DNA of 64,000 nucleotides from Haloprofundus halophilus. Lineage in GTDB: Archaea > Halobacteriota > Halobacteria > Halobacteriales > Haloferacaceae. A program made the translations under genes and the position numbers. Under the pieces are notes generated by a model. That model was not told the DNA's origin, did not search any database, and saw only the letters and a list, made by a program, of their open reading frames with translations. The stretch spans positions 558,001-622,000 of the forward strand of contig NZ_QQRR01000001.1 of NCBI RefSeq assembly GCF_003439925.1. Reading direction: 5' to 3'. This document shows positions 23,444 through 54,635 of this stretch, in pieces; within the stretch, counting starts at the first letter, position 1, and each line of letters starts with the position of its first letter.

Positions 23444-23901
23444 ACCGCGTCGTCACCCTCGGCGCGGATGGCCAGTCGCTTGATACGCTCTTGGAGGTCG
23501 TCCGAGCCAGACGCCGAGAGACCGGGGATGGTGACGTCCGCGCCACGCGACCCGGCGGTGTAGACGACGGTGGTCGCCAGCCCGGCGAGACGTTCGACAG
23601 GCGACCGCGAGGAGTCGACGTGCTGGATACGGACGAACGGGACGACCGTTCGGACGCGAGTGAACACGCCGCGCTCCAGATACAGCGAGTCGTCGCGGAC
23701 CTCGTAGCGCCAGTAGCGGTACCGGAGGAGGGCGACGGTGACTCCGAAGAACAGCACGGCGAGAAAGACGGCGACCGGAAGCCAGAGCCCCTGCTCGAGG
23801 ACGAATCGGTCGAACACGGCGGCGAGCGCGCCGACGACGGTGGCGGCGACGACCGCCCGCAGCGACCACAGCAGTCGCACGCGGGGGTGGAGTCGCATCA
23901 T
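23440..23901 (-). CDS. Membrane protein with one bacterial PH domain, YdbS-like
   Basis: 153 residues with two membrane helices (about 12-32 and 38-58) and one bPH2 domain (YEVRDDSLYLERGVFTRVRTVVPFVRIQHVD). It precedes and overlaps (ATGA) the larger three-domain gene, the same order as ydbS-ydbT in bacteria. In Bacillus the pair has been linked to resistance to antimicrobial compounds; that may not hold here. Two consecutive ATG codons (23901 and 23898) could serve as start. Confidence 0.85.
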   Translation of the reverse strand: MMRLHPRVRLLWSLRAVVAATVVGALAAVFDRFVLEQGLWLPVAVFLAVLFFGVTVALLRYRYWRYEVRDDSLYLERGVFTRVRTVVPFVRIQHVDSSRSPVERLAGLATTVVYTAGSRGADVTIPGLSASGSDDLQERIKRLAIRAEGDDAV

Positions 23902-24056
23902 CGACGACGCACCCCGTCCCCCCGGAGGTGCGGTTCGCTCTTCGCTCGCTCGACCTCGTCGTCCCGTCGTCGTCTCGCCGACGCTGCCGTCGGCCGGAAG
24001 CCGCTCATCGCCGGTCGTTTCGAGGGAGCGAGTATAAATCCCGGTACCCGTCGGGG

Positions 24057-24842
24057 TCAGGCCGTCGCGGCCAGCCGTCGCTCGACGCGGCGGCGGGCGC
24101 GTCGAACCGCGTCGACGAGCGTCGTCACCGCCGACAACGCCGGGTACGTGTACGGTCGGTCGTGATAGAGAAACGTGGGGAGGTCGACGTCGGTGACGCC
24201 GAGTCGCTGGCGGTGGCTCCGGATCTTCGACTGGCGCTCGGCGTGGAGCGACCCCGCCCGTCGTTCGAGCGCCGAAACGCGTTCTCTGAGGTCGTGGAGG
24301 TCGTCGAACGACCGCTCGGGGAGCGGGCGGTCGTCGAGCGAGCGGAGTCGTTCGACGACAGCGTCGATACCGTCGAGTACCGTCCCCAGCGACTCGGCCT
24401 CCTCGTCGAGCAAGGCGACGAACGACTCGCGGTCGGCCGCCGCCTCCTTCGCCGCCTCCGCGACGACGCGCTGCAGTTCCGGCGTCAGTCCGTCCGTCGA
24501 GACGAGCGCGCCGCCGACGCCGGTGCCGAACTCCTCGACGATGCTTCGTCCCACGGTGTCGCCGTACTCGCTCTCGTAGTGCGGCACGGCCATCACCGTC
24601 CGTTGATAGGCGTTCAGGACGCGCCGCGTCGCGTTCGGTCCGCCCTCGCCGACGCCGCTACCTCTGACGGTCGCCGGAACCGTGCGGCCGGCGCTCGCCG
24701 GCTGTATCTGCGCCAGTCGGTCGCCGAACGCGCGAAACGCCTCGCGCTCGTCGACGGTCCGACGACGCTCTTTGCGAACGATCTGGCGGGCGTCTCGAAC
24801 CGTGTGCCCGACGGCGTCGAGCGTCGGGGCCCGCTCGGTCAT
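24057..24842 (-). CDS. Haloarchaeal coiled-coil protein of unknown function
   Basis: 261 residues, soluble and mostly helical. Long amphipathic helices span about 12-50, 110-165 and 175-215 (DLRERVSALERRAGSLHAERQSKIRSH in part). The C-terminus has FLYHDRPYTYPALSAVTTLVDAVRRARRRVERRL, a pattern I associate with a haloarchaeal family (possibly DUF7260). No catalytic motif or membrane segment. It is a single gene; 155 bases separate it from the PH-domain operon on the same strand. Confidence 0.72.
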   Translation of the reverse strand: MTERAPTLDAVGHTVRDARQIVRKERRRTVDEREAFRAFGDRLAQIQPASAGRTVPATVRGSGVGEGGPNATRRVLNAYQRTVMAVPHYESEYGDTVGRSIVEEFGTGVGGALVSTDGLTPELQRVVAEAAKEAAADRESFVALLDEEAESLGTVLDGIDAVVERLRSLDDRPLPERSFDDLHDLRERVSALERRAGSLHAERQSKIRSHRQRLGVTDVDLPTFLYHDRPYTYPALSAVTTLVDAVRRARRRVERRLAATA

Positions 24843-51905: not shown

Positions 51906-51960
51906 CCCCGTCCGCCGCGAGGACGGTAGGGTTTTCCCCCGAGGCGACCGAGAGTCGGGT

Positions 51961-53427
51961 ATGGTGAGGTGGCTGCTGCTCGGCTGCGGCCCAGTCGGTC
52001 ACGCGATGCTCGAGATGCTCGCCGAGCGCTCCGGCCGCGTTCAAGTGATCACCGACGACCCCGAGCGCGTGACGTCGTTGCGCGAGGAGGGCGTCAGGGC
52101 GATACACGCCGACCCGACCAACCCCGAGAGCTATCCGACGACGGCCGAACTCATCCTCGTCGTCGGTGAAGACGCCGGTCGAAATCTCGCCGCCGTCGAG
52201 AGCGCGCGTCGCCGGTATCCGGACGCGCAGGTGACGACGTACGCGGGCGTCGACGCCGACCCGGAGTTCGTCGAGCGACTCCACGCGAGCGCCGACCGCG
52301 TCGTCGACGCGACGTCGGTGCTGACAGACCACGTCGTCGGGATGGTCGACCACGAACCCGCCCGCCGTCTCCGCAGACTGCTCACGGTGCTGCGCGAACT
52401 GGACGGTCCGCTCGCCGTCGTCACCCACGACAACCCCGACCCCGACGCCATCGCCAGCGCCGTCGCGCTCTGTCGGATCGCCGAGACGGTCGGCGTCGAG
52501 GCCGACGCGTGCTACTTCGGCGAGATATCGCACCAGGAGAACCGCGCGCTCGTCAACCTGCTGGACCTCCAGCTCCGGAATCTGGAGTCGAACGACGACC
52601 TGGAACCGTACGCCGGTATCGCGCTCGTCGACCACTCGCGCCCCGGCGTCAACGACGGCCTCGACCCCGAGACGCTGGTCGACATCGTCATCGACCACCA
52701 CCCGCCGCGGGCCCCCGTCGAAGCGCGGTTCGTCGACCTCAGAAGCGAGGTGGGCGCGACGAGCACGCTGTTGGCCGACTACCTCGAACGACTCGGCCGC
52801 GACCTCGACCGGACGGTCGCGACGGCGCTGCTGTACGGTATCCGCGTCGACACGAAGGACTTCACCCGAGAGGTGTCGAAGATGGACTTCGAGGCGACGG
52901 CGTACCTGCTCGAGCGCGTCGACGCTTCGGTTCTCGAGCGCGTCGAGACGCCGAGCATGAGCGCCGACGTGTTCGAGACCATCGCCCGCGCTATCCGCAA
53001 CCGCGAGGTTCGCGGCACGGCGCTCGCCTCCTGCGTCGGCAAGATAACCGACCGCGACGCGCTCGCGCAGGCCGCCGAGCGACTGCTCGACATGGAGGGG
53101 GTAGAGGTCTCTCTCGTCTACGGCTTCGAGGGCGGAACAGTCTACGTCTCCGGGCGCGCTCGCGGCACGGACATCGACCTCGGCGAGACGCTCAGAGACG
53201 CCCTCGGACAGATCGGCAGCGCCGGCGGTCACGCCGACATGGCGGGCGCGCAGCTCCCGCTCGGCATCCTCGAGAACGTCGAAGACGACGCCAAGGAGCC
53301 GTTAACCGAAGTGGTCCGCGGTATCGTCAGCGGTCGGTTCTTCGAGACGCTCGACACCGCGCCCTCCCTCGGCGTCGGCGATACCGAAGAGCTGACGCTG
53401 GAGTTTCCCATCGACGAGCGGAACTGA
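51961..53427 (+). CDS. TrkA_N-DHH-DHHA1 phosphoesterase
   Basis: 488 residues in three parts. Residues 1 to about 125 are a TrkA_N/RCK-like Rossmann domain with the nucleotide loop GCGPVG (8-13). About 145-300 is the DHH phosphoesterase core: motif I THDNPDPDAIAS (155-166), motif II Asp224-His225, motif III Asp245-His246-His247. About 380-460 is DHHA1 with GSAGGHADMAGA (Gly-Gly-His 422-424). DHH-DHHA1 enzymes cleave nanoRNA, pAp or cyclic dinucleotides with Mn2+. The nucleotide-binding front domain suggests regulation by, or action on, a nucleotide signal such as c-di-AMP, which haloarchaea make; this is inference. Confidence 0.9.
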   Translation: MVRWLLLGCGPVGHAMLEMLAERSGRVQVITDDPERVTSLREEGVRAIHADPTNPESYPTTAELILVVGEDAGRNLAAVESARRRYPDAQVTTYAGVDADPEFVERLHASADRVVDATSVLTDHVVGMVDHEPARRLRRLLTVLRELDGPLAVVTHDNPDPDAIASAVALCRIAETVGVEADACYFGEISHQENRALVNLLDLQLRNLESNDDLEPYAGIALVDHSRPGVNDGLDPETLVDIVIDHHPPRAPVEARFVDLRSEVGATSTLLADYLERLGRDLDRTVATALLYGIRVDTKDFTREVSKMDFEATAYLLERVDASVLERVETPSMSADVFETIARAIRNREVRGTALASCVGKITDRDALAQAAERLLDMEGVEVSLVYGFEGGTVYVSGRARGTDIDLGETLRDALGQIGSAGGHADMAGAQLPLGILENVEDDAKEPLTEVVRGIVSGRFFETLDTAPSLGVGDTEELTLEFPIDERN

Positions 53428-53496
53428 GCTGAGCGTCGGTACGGCTCGACAAGGGCGACACCACGCTTTTTGCCGCCCGCTCGCGTACCCTCCAGC

Positions 53497-54279
53497 ATGT
53501 CCGGGAACGCCACGGTGAAGGAGTACATGACCCGAGAGGTGTCGACGGTCTCGCCGGACGACACCGTCGCCGACGTCGCCCGCCGAATCGTCGAGAGCGA
53601 CGGCCACAACGGCTTTCCCGTCTGCAACGGCCGGAAGGTCGAGGGGTTCGTCAACGCCCGCGATATCCTGATGGCCGACGGCGACGCGCCCATCTTCACC
53701 GTGATGACCGACGACATCATCGTCGCGCACCCGGAGATGAAACTCACCGACGCCGCCCGCGTCATCCTCCGGTCCGGCATCCAGAAACTCCCCGTCGTCG
53801 ACGACGCGGGCAACCTCGTCGGCATCATCTCGAACACCGACGTCATCAGGAGCCAAATCGAGCGCGCGACGCCCGAGAAGGTGGGGAAACTGATGCGGAC
53901 GCTCGAACAGATTCACGACGTGCCGGTCCACGAGGAGCGCCGACTGATCTCCATCTCGTCGCTCATCCCCACGCAGGGGCGCGTCTACGCCGACGAACTC
54001 GAAGGCCGCCGGTACGAACTCGAACGTGGCCTCGCCGAACCCCTCGTCGTCATCGACAACGACGGGACGCTGCTTCTGGCCGACGGCCACCACCGCGTGC
54101 TCGCCGCCGCCCGCTCGGAGATGGACGAGATGGACGCCTACGTCATCGTCGTCGACGACGTGGTGGAACTCGGGATGCAGCGCACCGCCGAGAAAGAGGG
54201 GCTCTCCTCCATCGACGACATCGACATCGTCGACTACGCCCGCCACCCGCTCATCGAGACGACGAAGCGGTTGCAGTAG
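53497..54279 (+). CDS. CBS-pair protein with ParB/Srx-like domain
   Basis: 260 residues. Residues 1 to about 125 form a CBS pair (VKEYMTREVSTVSPDDTV; IFTVMTDDIIVAHPEMKL; LPVVDDAGNLVGIISNTDVI), a usual binding site for adenine nucleotides. About 150-235 is a ParB/sulfiredoxin-like domain with Asp196-Gly-His-His-Arg200 in LLLADGHHRVLAAA. Related archaeal proteins include SerK, the ADP-dependent free-serine kinase of Thermococcus used in cysteine synthesis; a role in DNA partition is therefore not implied. The gene starts 69 bases after the DHH gene on the same strand, making a functional pair plausible. Confidence 0.85.
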   Translation: MSGNATVKEYMTREVSTVSPDDTVADVARRIVESDGHNGFPVCNGRKVEGFVNARDILMADGDAPIFTVMTDDIIVAHPEMKLTDAARVILRSGIQKLPVVDDAGNLVGIISNTDVIRSQIERATPEKVGKLMRTLEQIHDVPVHEERRLISISSLIPTQGRVYADELEGRRYELERGLAEPLVVIDNDGTLLLADGHHRVLAAARSEMDEMDAYVIVVDDVVELGMQRTAEKEGLSSIDDIDIVDYARHPLIETTKRLQ

Positions 54280-54365: not shown

Positions 54366-54635
54366 ATGGTCCTCGGAGCCCTCGATCCGCTAGGAATCTT
54401 CGTCGGTCTCTACGCCGTCGCCGTCGGTGTACTCGGCGTCGCCCGACCGCAGACGATGTTCAAGATGCGTCACTGGCTGTCGGTGACAAGCGACTCGGAG
54501 TTGAGCGAACTGGGCGTCCTCTGGTACCGGGTCAGCGGCGCGCTCGCACTCCTTCTCGGCCTCTGGCTGCTGTACGACTGGGGCAACGTCGGACTGGTCG
54601 TCGCACACTGGCTGGGGTCGTCCGCCGTACCGTAG
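54366..54635 (+). CDS. Small membrane protein, two helices
   Basis: 89 residues with hydrophobic helices at about 5-25 (LGIFVGLYAVAVGVLGVA) and 52-82 (WYRVSGALALLLGLWLLYDW), joined by a polar loop. No catalytic motif. TTATTTTCG upstream and GATAAAATCGAGTTTT right before the ATG form an A+T-rich promoter with little or no leader. No family recognised with certainty. Confidence 0.65.
   Translation: MVLGALDPLGIFVGLYAVAVGVLGVARPQTMFKMRHWLSVTSDSELSELGVLWYRVSGALALLLGLWLLYDWGNVGLVVAHWLGSSAVP

Follow-up and report, generated by a model that had tools for sequence, protein, structure and literature searches.

The 64,000-nucleotide stretch of the Haloprofundus halophilus genome analysed here (contig NZ_QQRR01000001.1, positions 558,001 to 622,000; 'the window') contains two neighbouring genes, one encoding a protein that joins a TrkA_N Rossmann domain to a DHH-DHHA1 phosphoesterase (hereafter DHH1) and the other a protein that joins a CBS pair to a ParB-like domain (hereafter CBS-ParB). 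DHH1 is the best-supported TrkA_N-type candidate, short of proof, for the haloarchaeal phosphodiesterase acting on cyclic di-adenosine monophosphate (c-di-AMP) or pApA, because its catalytic residues are kept in all 43 sequences compared while a second TrkA_N-DHH protein, DHH2, has lost catalytic residues. That haloarchaea have two TrkA_N-DHH paralogues with opposite residue fates is new here, and this split is the part of the work most useful to the specialist. The explanation that we favour, with a probability of a little under 60%, is that DHH1 is a competent phosphodiesterase, DHH2 a sensor or regulator and CBS-ParB a separate protein, DHH1 and CBS-ParB being two housekeeping genes that share a neighbourhood.

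Catalytic residues in two TrkA_N-DHH paralogues

Three relatives with a DHH domain are encoded in the source genome. Besides DHH1, these are DHH2 (L002, C1:42325-43716 of this genome), a TrkA_N-DHH protein 40% identical to DHH1 that is present in all 59 genomes of the class that were searched (orthologues L103-L131), and DHH3 (L003), which has DHH and DHHA1 domains but lacks TrkA_N and whose motifs, judged by eye, look intact. Motifs were compared in hand-picked rows, namely 43 for DHH1 (the window protein plus 21, 8 and 13 loci), 31 for DHH2 (29 loci from the 59-genome search, L002 and L078) and 20 for other archaeal TrkA_N-DHH proteins, taken from 144 genomes with a match. In DHH1, residues H156, D160, D162, D224, D245, H246, H247 and D297 and the AGGH motif are identical in 43/43 rows. 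In DHH2, by contrast, 30/31 rows lack the second histidine of the DHH motif, the motif-IV aspartate is replaced by glutamate in 31/31, one of the motif-I aspartates by glutamate in 8/31 and the first glycine of GGH by alanine in 28/31. The Rossmann motif GxGxxG is complete in all 31 DHH2 rows, and its last glycine is retained in just 31 of the 43 DHH1 rows. The other archaeal proteins have intact DHH and GGH motifs in 20/20 cases, a motif-IV glutamate in seven and GxGxxG in 19.

Since the second DHH histidine is changed, these substitutions suggest that catalysis has been lost in DHH2, which is a probable pseudoenzyme. The solved structures matched include mutants titled H103A (NrnA) and H98Q (pyrophosphatase), which we take to be changes of this same histidine. 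A kept Rossmann motif together with lost catalytic residues makes it probable that DHH2 acts as a sensor or regulator, its catalysis being absent or altered. Mean pairwise identities over the TrkA_N and DHH-DHHA1 parts (0.39 and 0.63 in DHH1, 0.78 and 0.78 in DHH2, 0.42 and 0.60 in the others) indicate that the DHH2 sensor is unusually constrained and that of DHH1 loose, slightly more so than in other archaeal proteins. In a tree of 67 proteins (31 DHH1, 16 DHH2 and 20 other rows), a single branch sets each of the three groups apart (supports 100/100, 100/100 and 99/88), the tree being without an outgroup and flagged for long branches in DHH1 and an uneven residue composition. We infer from this unrooted tree that DHH1 and DHH2 arose by duplication.

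The structure of DHH1 points in the same direction as its residues. Its model (predicted local distance difference test, pLDDT, 87.2) has as best PDB matches the catalytic domain of GdpP (5xt3, 5xsp and 5xsi, E values of 1.7e-21 to 4.6e-21; template modelling score, TM, of 0.63 by target length), followed by the T. maritima phosphodiesterase (TmPDE), RecJ-like proteins, DhhP, Rv2837c and NrnA, and the best phmmer match of the protein is again GdpP (5xsi, 2.1e-13). DHH1 has the complete domains and the intact metal and DHH motifs of a DHH-DHHA1 phosphodiesterase of the GdpP/DhhP kind. Judging from fold and motifs, it would most likely use bound metal ions to linearise c-di-AMP to pApA, to cleave pApA to AMP, or both.

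Co-occurrence with the diadenylate cyclase

Among 145 genomes of Halobacteria, DHH1 was matched in 140 (E<=1e-120) and CBS-ParB in all 145 (E<=1e-40), so that the two genes are not chance reading frames, and the cyclase domain PF02457 is found in 144. As would be expected of a phosphodiesterase of this kind, the DHH protein occurs together with a diadenylate cyclase, apart from two genomes (G128 and G166) considered below.

Outside Halobacteria, TrkA_N-DHH was matched in 144 of 163 sampled genomes (E<=1e-40) and CBS-ParB in 92 (E<=1e-8). The cyclase was searched for in 78 of these 163 genomes, namely each of the 19 that lack TrkA_N-DHH and 59 of the 144 that have it, the latter picked for a spread over families ahead of the result. 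It was found in 58/59 genomes with TrkA_N-DHH and in 5/19 without (Fisher 1.6e-10), the figures being 52/53 and 2/14 for genomes at least 90% complete (Fisher 1.9e-10). TrkA_N-DHH closely follows the cyclase outside Halobacteria, while CBS-ParB follows it weakly. The double losses of DHH protein and cyclase, 14 genomes in all, amount to a small number of events; eight of the genomes belong to family f26, four to genus g70, and two are others that are 75% and 89% complete. All four g70 genomes have kept CBS-ParB, and a further member of the genus (G157) retains both cyclase and DHH, which were thus seemingly lost together within g70. Conversely, the six members of f12 that were tested possess cyclase and DHH and no CBS-ParB. 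Together, the co-occurrence and the losses in g70 speak for a TrkA_N-DHH that acts on c-di-AMP or its product and for a CBS-ParB independent of it; the co-occurrence links TrkA_N-DHH proteins to c-di-AMP beyond Halobacteria. In the 51 non-haloarchaeal genomes with places for both genes among the matches listed, the two were never close (on one contig in 15, at 15 kb at the nearest, and on different contigs in 36), and no DHH match was found in any of 20 fetched non-haloarchaeal CBS-ParB loci. The haloarchaeal genome G128 (locus L083) is a useful natural test of the DHH1 substrate.

The shared locus and CBS-ParB

The open reading frames bear out the two genes of the preliminary description, with their positions, common strand and 69-base spacing (53428-53496; Table 1). 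The domains that it had named also stand. TrkA_N (50.3 bits), DHH (46.8) and DHHA1 (52.5) in DHH1 and CBS in CBS-ParB (88.8 bits, in two stretches) all score above the curated Pfam cut-offs, while the half that it had called a ParB/Srx domain is weak when the window protein is taken singly (ParBc_2, 19.0 bits against a cut-off of 23.6, beside a weak DUF1015 match) and is backed by the family. Each of the 19 relatives scanned has a ParBc_2 match with E<=1 (the strongest 1.2e-5), and a domain profile built on 19 haloarchaeal proteins matches the solved ParB 4umk (8.1e-4) and Spo0J (0.039). No NCBIfam model listed reached its cut-off, whether for DHH1 (18 models) or for CBS-ParB (best 25 of 27).

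Table 1. Features of the DHH1/CBS-ParB locus, in window positions
Feature	Positions	Strand	Details	Basis
Conserved promoter-like element of DHH1	51922-51935	+	GACGGTAGGGTTTT; T-run at -29 to -26 of ATG (51932-51935)	
DHH1 (TrkA_N-DHH-DHHA1 protein)	51961-53427	+	488 amino acids, ATG start	Open reading frame and Pfam
TrkA_N (Rossmann) domain of DHH1	51973-52305	+	Amino acids 5-115; GxGxxG intact in the window protein (GCGPVG)	Pfam
DHH domain of DHH1	52414-52842	+	Amino acids 152-294; motifs HDNPDPD, VDHS, IDHH	
DHHA1 domain of DHH1	53020-53304	+	Amino acids 354-448; motif SAGGH	
TATA-like box of CBS-ParB	53467-53471	+	TTTTT, -30 to -26 of ATG, within the 69-base gap	
CBS-ParB protein	53497-54279	+	260 amino acids; ATG within a longer TTG-started frame	Open reading frame and Pfam
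CBS pair of CBS-ParB	53515-53859	+	About amino acids 7-121; motifs GFVNARD and GIISNTD	
ParB-like domain of CBS-ParB	53932-54276	+	Amino acids 146-260; invariant PTQ, VY.DEL and DGHHR (GxxR P-motif)	

The neighbourhood of DHH1 and CBS-ParB is old. In a first count, measured on match ends rather than gene ends, the best matches lay on the same strand within 4 kb in 116/145 Halobacteria genomes (within 500 bases in 110), with a median gap of 160 among the 116. The five genomes missed at E<=1e-120 have weaker DHH matches, which in four lie at most 2.6 kb before CBS-ParB, bringing the total to 120/145 genomes and 51/58 genera, in every family except f5, which is represented by one genome split over many contigs. 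Among the 29 genomes that the first count left out, 12 have their two matches on different contigs, so that some non-adjacencies may be assembly breaks, and two (G023 and G068) have the genes on opposite strands within about 5 kb of each other and were left uncounted. The 25 genomes that finally stand outside include genera g2 and g4 in full (15 and three genomes), and both proteins are still matched in them. Upstream, the end of nuoN is 240 bases from DHH1 in the window, and the gene precedes DHH1 in 25 of 34 fetched haloarchaeal loci with DHH1, at 65-805 bases (17 of these 25 being the named DHH1 loci), while four loci (L085, L091, L092 and L098) keep the pair with no nuo match anywhere in the stretch fetched. 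Downstream, the zinc dehydrogenase of the window is found within the 8-kb flank of only 3/17 named DHH1 loci, which indicates that the conserved stretch stops after CBS-ParB in most of them. The window also encodes, at 54366-54635, a small membrane-like protein of 89 amino acids with a DUF6199-like match just below the cut-off. Considered as a third partner it gained no support, since tblastn (E<=1e-8) matched it, after CBS-ParB, in two other genomes of the same genus (G021 and G099) and not in the remaining loci searched.

Each of the two genes is preceded by a conserved box of its own. When the 60 bases before the start codon were compared, T at -28 was found in 88% of the DHH1 upstream stretches (61 distinct of 63) and in 74% of those of CBS-ParB (70 distinct of 87), against mostly 1-30% at other positions, and both sets have an A/T-richer spot at -11/-10. 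Such a spacing of the T-run is typical of leaderless haloarchaeal genes. An operon would have one promoter and one transcript, and here a second conserved TATA-like box precedes CBS-ParB, so that DHH1 and CBS-ParB are probably each transcribed on their own, with read-through possible. In many DHH1 upstream stretches the conservation of GACGGTAGGGTTTT exceeds that of a simple TATA box, and the element is possibly a regulator site; a DHH1 regulon defined by it was rejected, since only a single site in the genome matches it even when one mismatch is allowed.

CBS-ParB itself combines a CBS pair with a domain whose DGHHR sequence is invariant in 70/70 proteins and supplies the GxxR P-motif that, in a ParB-like domain, characterises the ParB-CTPase fold superfamily. 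Residues G109, S112 and D115 of its second CBS motif, the likely adenylate site, are invariant in 43/43 sequences, and the pair probably binds adenine nucleotides. Its model (pLDDT 86.4) matches CBS pairs, among them AcuB, CBSX, OpuCA and, lower, DarB with c-di-AMP, in a list of structures that covers the CBS half alone and is silent on the ParB half and on ParB and SerK chains. CBS-ParB was rejected as a chromosome partition protein of the ParB type, since Pfam finds neither a helix-turn-helix nor a dimerisation domain in it. Beyond Halobacteria its partner is often a different one. In 9 of the 20 fetched non-haloarchaeal loci (L162, L163, L164, L166, L169, L176-L178 and L180) CBS-ParB is followed by members of one sequence cluster, of which that from L162 is HisE-like (PRA-PH, 74.9 bits) and has a reading frame overlapping that of CBS-ParB by 4 bases. 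Of the 92 non-haloarchaeal genomes with CBS-ParB, 72 were searched, giving PRA-PH matches in 48, and in 24 of these 48 hisE lies directly downstream of CBS-ParB on the same strand, 20-97 bases after the ParB-domain match. In 8/8 haloarchaea searched, hisE lies elsewhere.

The family shows some variation of its own. Two ParB-domain matches occur in one long frame in G259 (C8, about 23645-24736, 626 codons) and in G281 (C1, 4259-5353, 513 codons), each probably a tandem CBS-ParB fusion. A second, diverged copy (47-50% identical) is found in two haloarchaeal genera (L093 in G121:C2, G111:C22, G039:C3 and G077:C1:1790920). In L092 (4914-5753) the ParB domain has a 22-residue insertion shortly before DGHHR, and matches in three further genomes of the same genus (g34) break off at the same place.

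Competing explanations and related systems

The explanation favoured here sees the haloarchaeal pair as neighbours with leaderless-type promoters of their own, two housekeeping genes concerned with adenine nucleotides and kept together. DHH1 would act on c-di-AMP or pApA, and CBS-ParB, which occurs in many families of the phylum and links a CBS pair to a ParB-fold domain whose invariant GxxR is predicted to bind nucleoside triphosphates (NTPs), would perhaps sense AMP-type products rather than being a dedicated c-di-AMP receptor. Several observations weigh against it. The conserved adjacency over 120 genomes itself argues for some functional link. CBS-ParB and the cyclase are not fully independent outside Halobacteria, the cyclase being present in 45/50 genomes with CBS-ParB and 18/28 without (Fisher 0.014; 39/44 and 15/23 in genomes at least 90% complete, 0.047). 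The Fisher values overstate independence, the genomes being related (8 of the 14 double losses fall in one family and four in one genus), and the five genomes that have a cyclase without TrkA_N-DHH, three of them less than 90% complete, break the rule from the other side. DHH3, lacking TrkA_N and with motifs that look intact, could do the job of DHH1. Finally, G128 (98% complete, in one contig) has no cyclase-domain match and keeps CBS-ParB and DHH1 with intact motifs, and the non-haloarchaeal G166 has a DHH protein without cyclase, so that the substrate of DHH1 may be wider and include pAp or nanoRNA. Taken further, G128 would fit a DHH1 that is mainly a nanoRNase or pAp phosphatase of the NrnA kind with c-di-AMP hydrolysis as a side activity, as would the closeness of the Rv2837c, NrnA and RecJ-like folds behind that of GdpP. 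This is difficult to reconcile with the loss of TrkA_N-DHH alongside the cyclase outside Halobacteria and with GdpP coming first in both sequence and fold, and we consider it unlikely.

As to why the genes stay together, a purely passive synteny behind the nuo operon has the position of nuoN and the separate promoters in its favour, and conservation that ends after CBS-ParB and the four loci without nuo against it; it is doubtful, though to be reckoned with, and hitchhiking behind nuo as the whole story was rejected because the pair persists in those four loci. The preliminary description had instead proposed a nucleotide-signal module, to be given up if the genes were not neighbours in other haloarchaea; they are neighbours in 120/145 genomes, including the four nuo-less loci. 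Its nucleotide role for the DHH protein has likewise gained support from the GdpP fold, the invariant catalytic residues and the co-occurrence with the cyclase. A true two-gene module, with DHH1 breaking down c-di-AMP and CBS-ParB acting as its receptor or being gated by the products, would also accord with the CBS fold of the c-di-AMP binders DarB and OpuCA, the invariant residues at the likely adenylate site and the weak co-occurrence of CBS-ParB with the cyclase. It does not sit well with a TATA-like box before each gene, with the 25 haloarchaea (all 15 of g2 among them) that keep both proteins outside the adjacency count, with the absence of adjacency in the genomes compared outside Halobacteria, with CBS-ParB persisting in four g70 genomes after cyclase and DHH were lost and missing from the six f12 genomes tested, where they are present, or with hisE as partner elsewhere; membership of the CbpB family was rejected (29.3 bits against a cut-off of 125). 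The dedicated module is therefore quite improbable, although the conserved pairing may be meaningful. The likeness to the SerK serine kinase claimed at the same time did not emerge from sequence searches. It comes down to DGHHR, which we take to resemble the SerK motif, whereas the ParB-domain profile matches ParB and Spo0J and lists no SerK at E<=10 (the presence of SerK in the library searched not being established). A DNA pattern for a SerK-like motif was found in 0/4 f26 genomes. The authors of the SerK paper PMC5120207, in its accessible part, saw no clear-cut archaeal homologues beyond four genera of Thermococcales and Desulfurococcales. It is very improbable that CBS-ParB is a free serine kinase of the SerK kind under adenylate control. 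A bolder idea, which we regard as a long shot, is that an ancestral single-chain sensor-enzyme was split, DHH1 remaining the phosphodiesterase with a decaying sensor, the pseudoenzyme DHH2, with its strongly conserved Rossmann sensor, reporting redox or nucleotide state to it and the neighbouring CBS-ParB reading the product as an NTP switch gated by adenylates. Such a c-di-AMP control circuit of three proteins, if real, would be one undescribed in the literature found.

For the reading that we favour, the practical consequence of the residue split is that DHH1 is the TrkA_N-type candidate to test first, DHH2 probably not being an enzyme. Setting CBS-ParB apart from the c-di-AMP pathway, as promoters, distribution and the hisE partner argue, takes away an attractive but weak lead and shifts attention to hisE and adenylates. 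No description of the DHH1/CBS-ParB pair or of its Haloferax locus tags was found in the accessible literature, a coverage that mostly leaves out subscription papers.

CBS-ParB has in common with the c-di-AMP-binding CBS proteins DarB/CbpB the fold of the CBS pair (DarB Z 17.1-17.7, about 17% identity) and differs from them by its additional ParB domain. This architecture is that of the CBS-ParB-CTPase fusions which, according to the accessible part of Kaljevic et al. (PNAS 2025, PMC12704722), are the most frequent archaeal fusions of the ParB-CTPase fold and occur mainly in Methanobacteriota and Haloarchaea; its main-text section on binding names no CBS fusion among positive binders, and that part does not treat gene neighbours. 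DHH1 shares with GdpP, DhhP and TmPDE the DHH-DHHA1 core, the residues of the metal and DHH motifs and its best fold and sequence match, but has an N-terminal TrkA_N Rossmann domain and, by Pfam, no PAS, GGDEF or other domain. GdpP proper has N-terminal membrane, PAS and GGDEF parts, and DHH1 was rejected as such since only TrkA_N is found before its DHH domain. In Haloferax volcanii its orthologue is presumably HVO_0990, to judge from its place after the nuo genes. The c-di-AMP-degrading enzyme of Haloferax, whose DacZ is the subject of PMC6741144 (accessible part), was stated as not identified in the accessible parts of two 2021 papers (PMC8305020 and PMC8646023). The first of these lists HVO_0756, HVO_0990 and HVO_1690 as predicted c-di-AMP phosphodiesterases, on prediction only, and HVO_0990 and HVO_1690 were up in a hypochlorite experiment (PMC10294847, accessible part). 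With HVO_0990 on a published list and CBS-ParB a known fusion, the locus is less of the 'undescribed system' than the preliminary description had it. What distinguishes the present picture from that list is that, as far as the accessible text of PMC8305020 goes, catalytic and degenerate copies are not told apart there, whereas the residue counts given here separate them.

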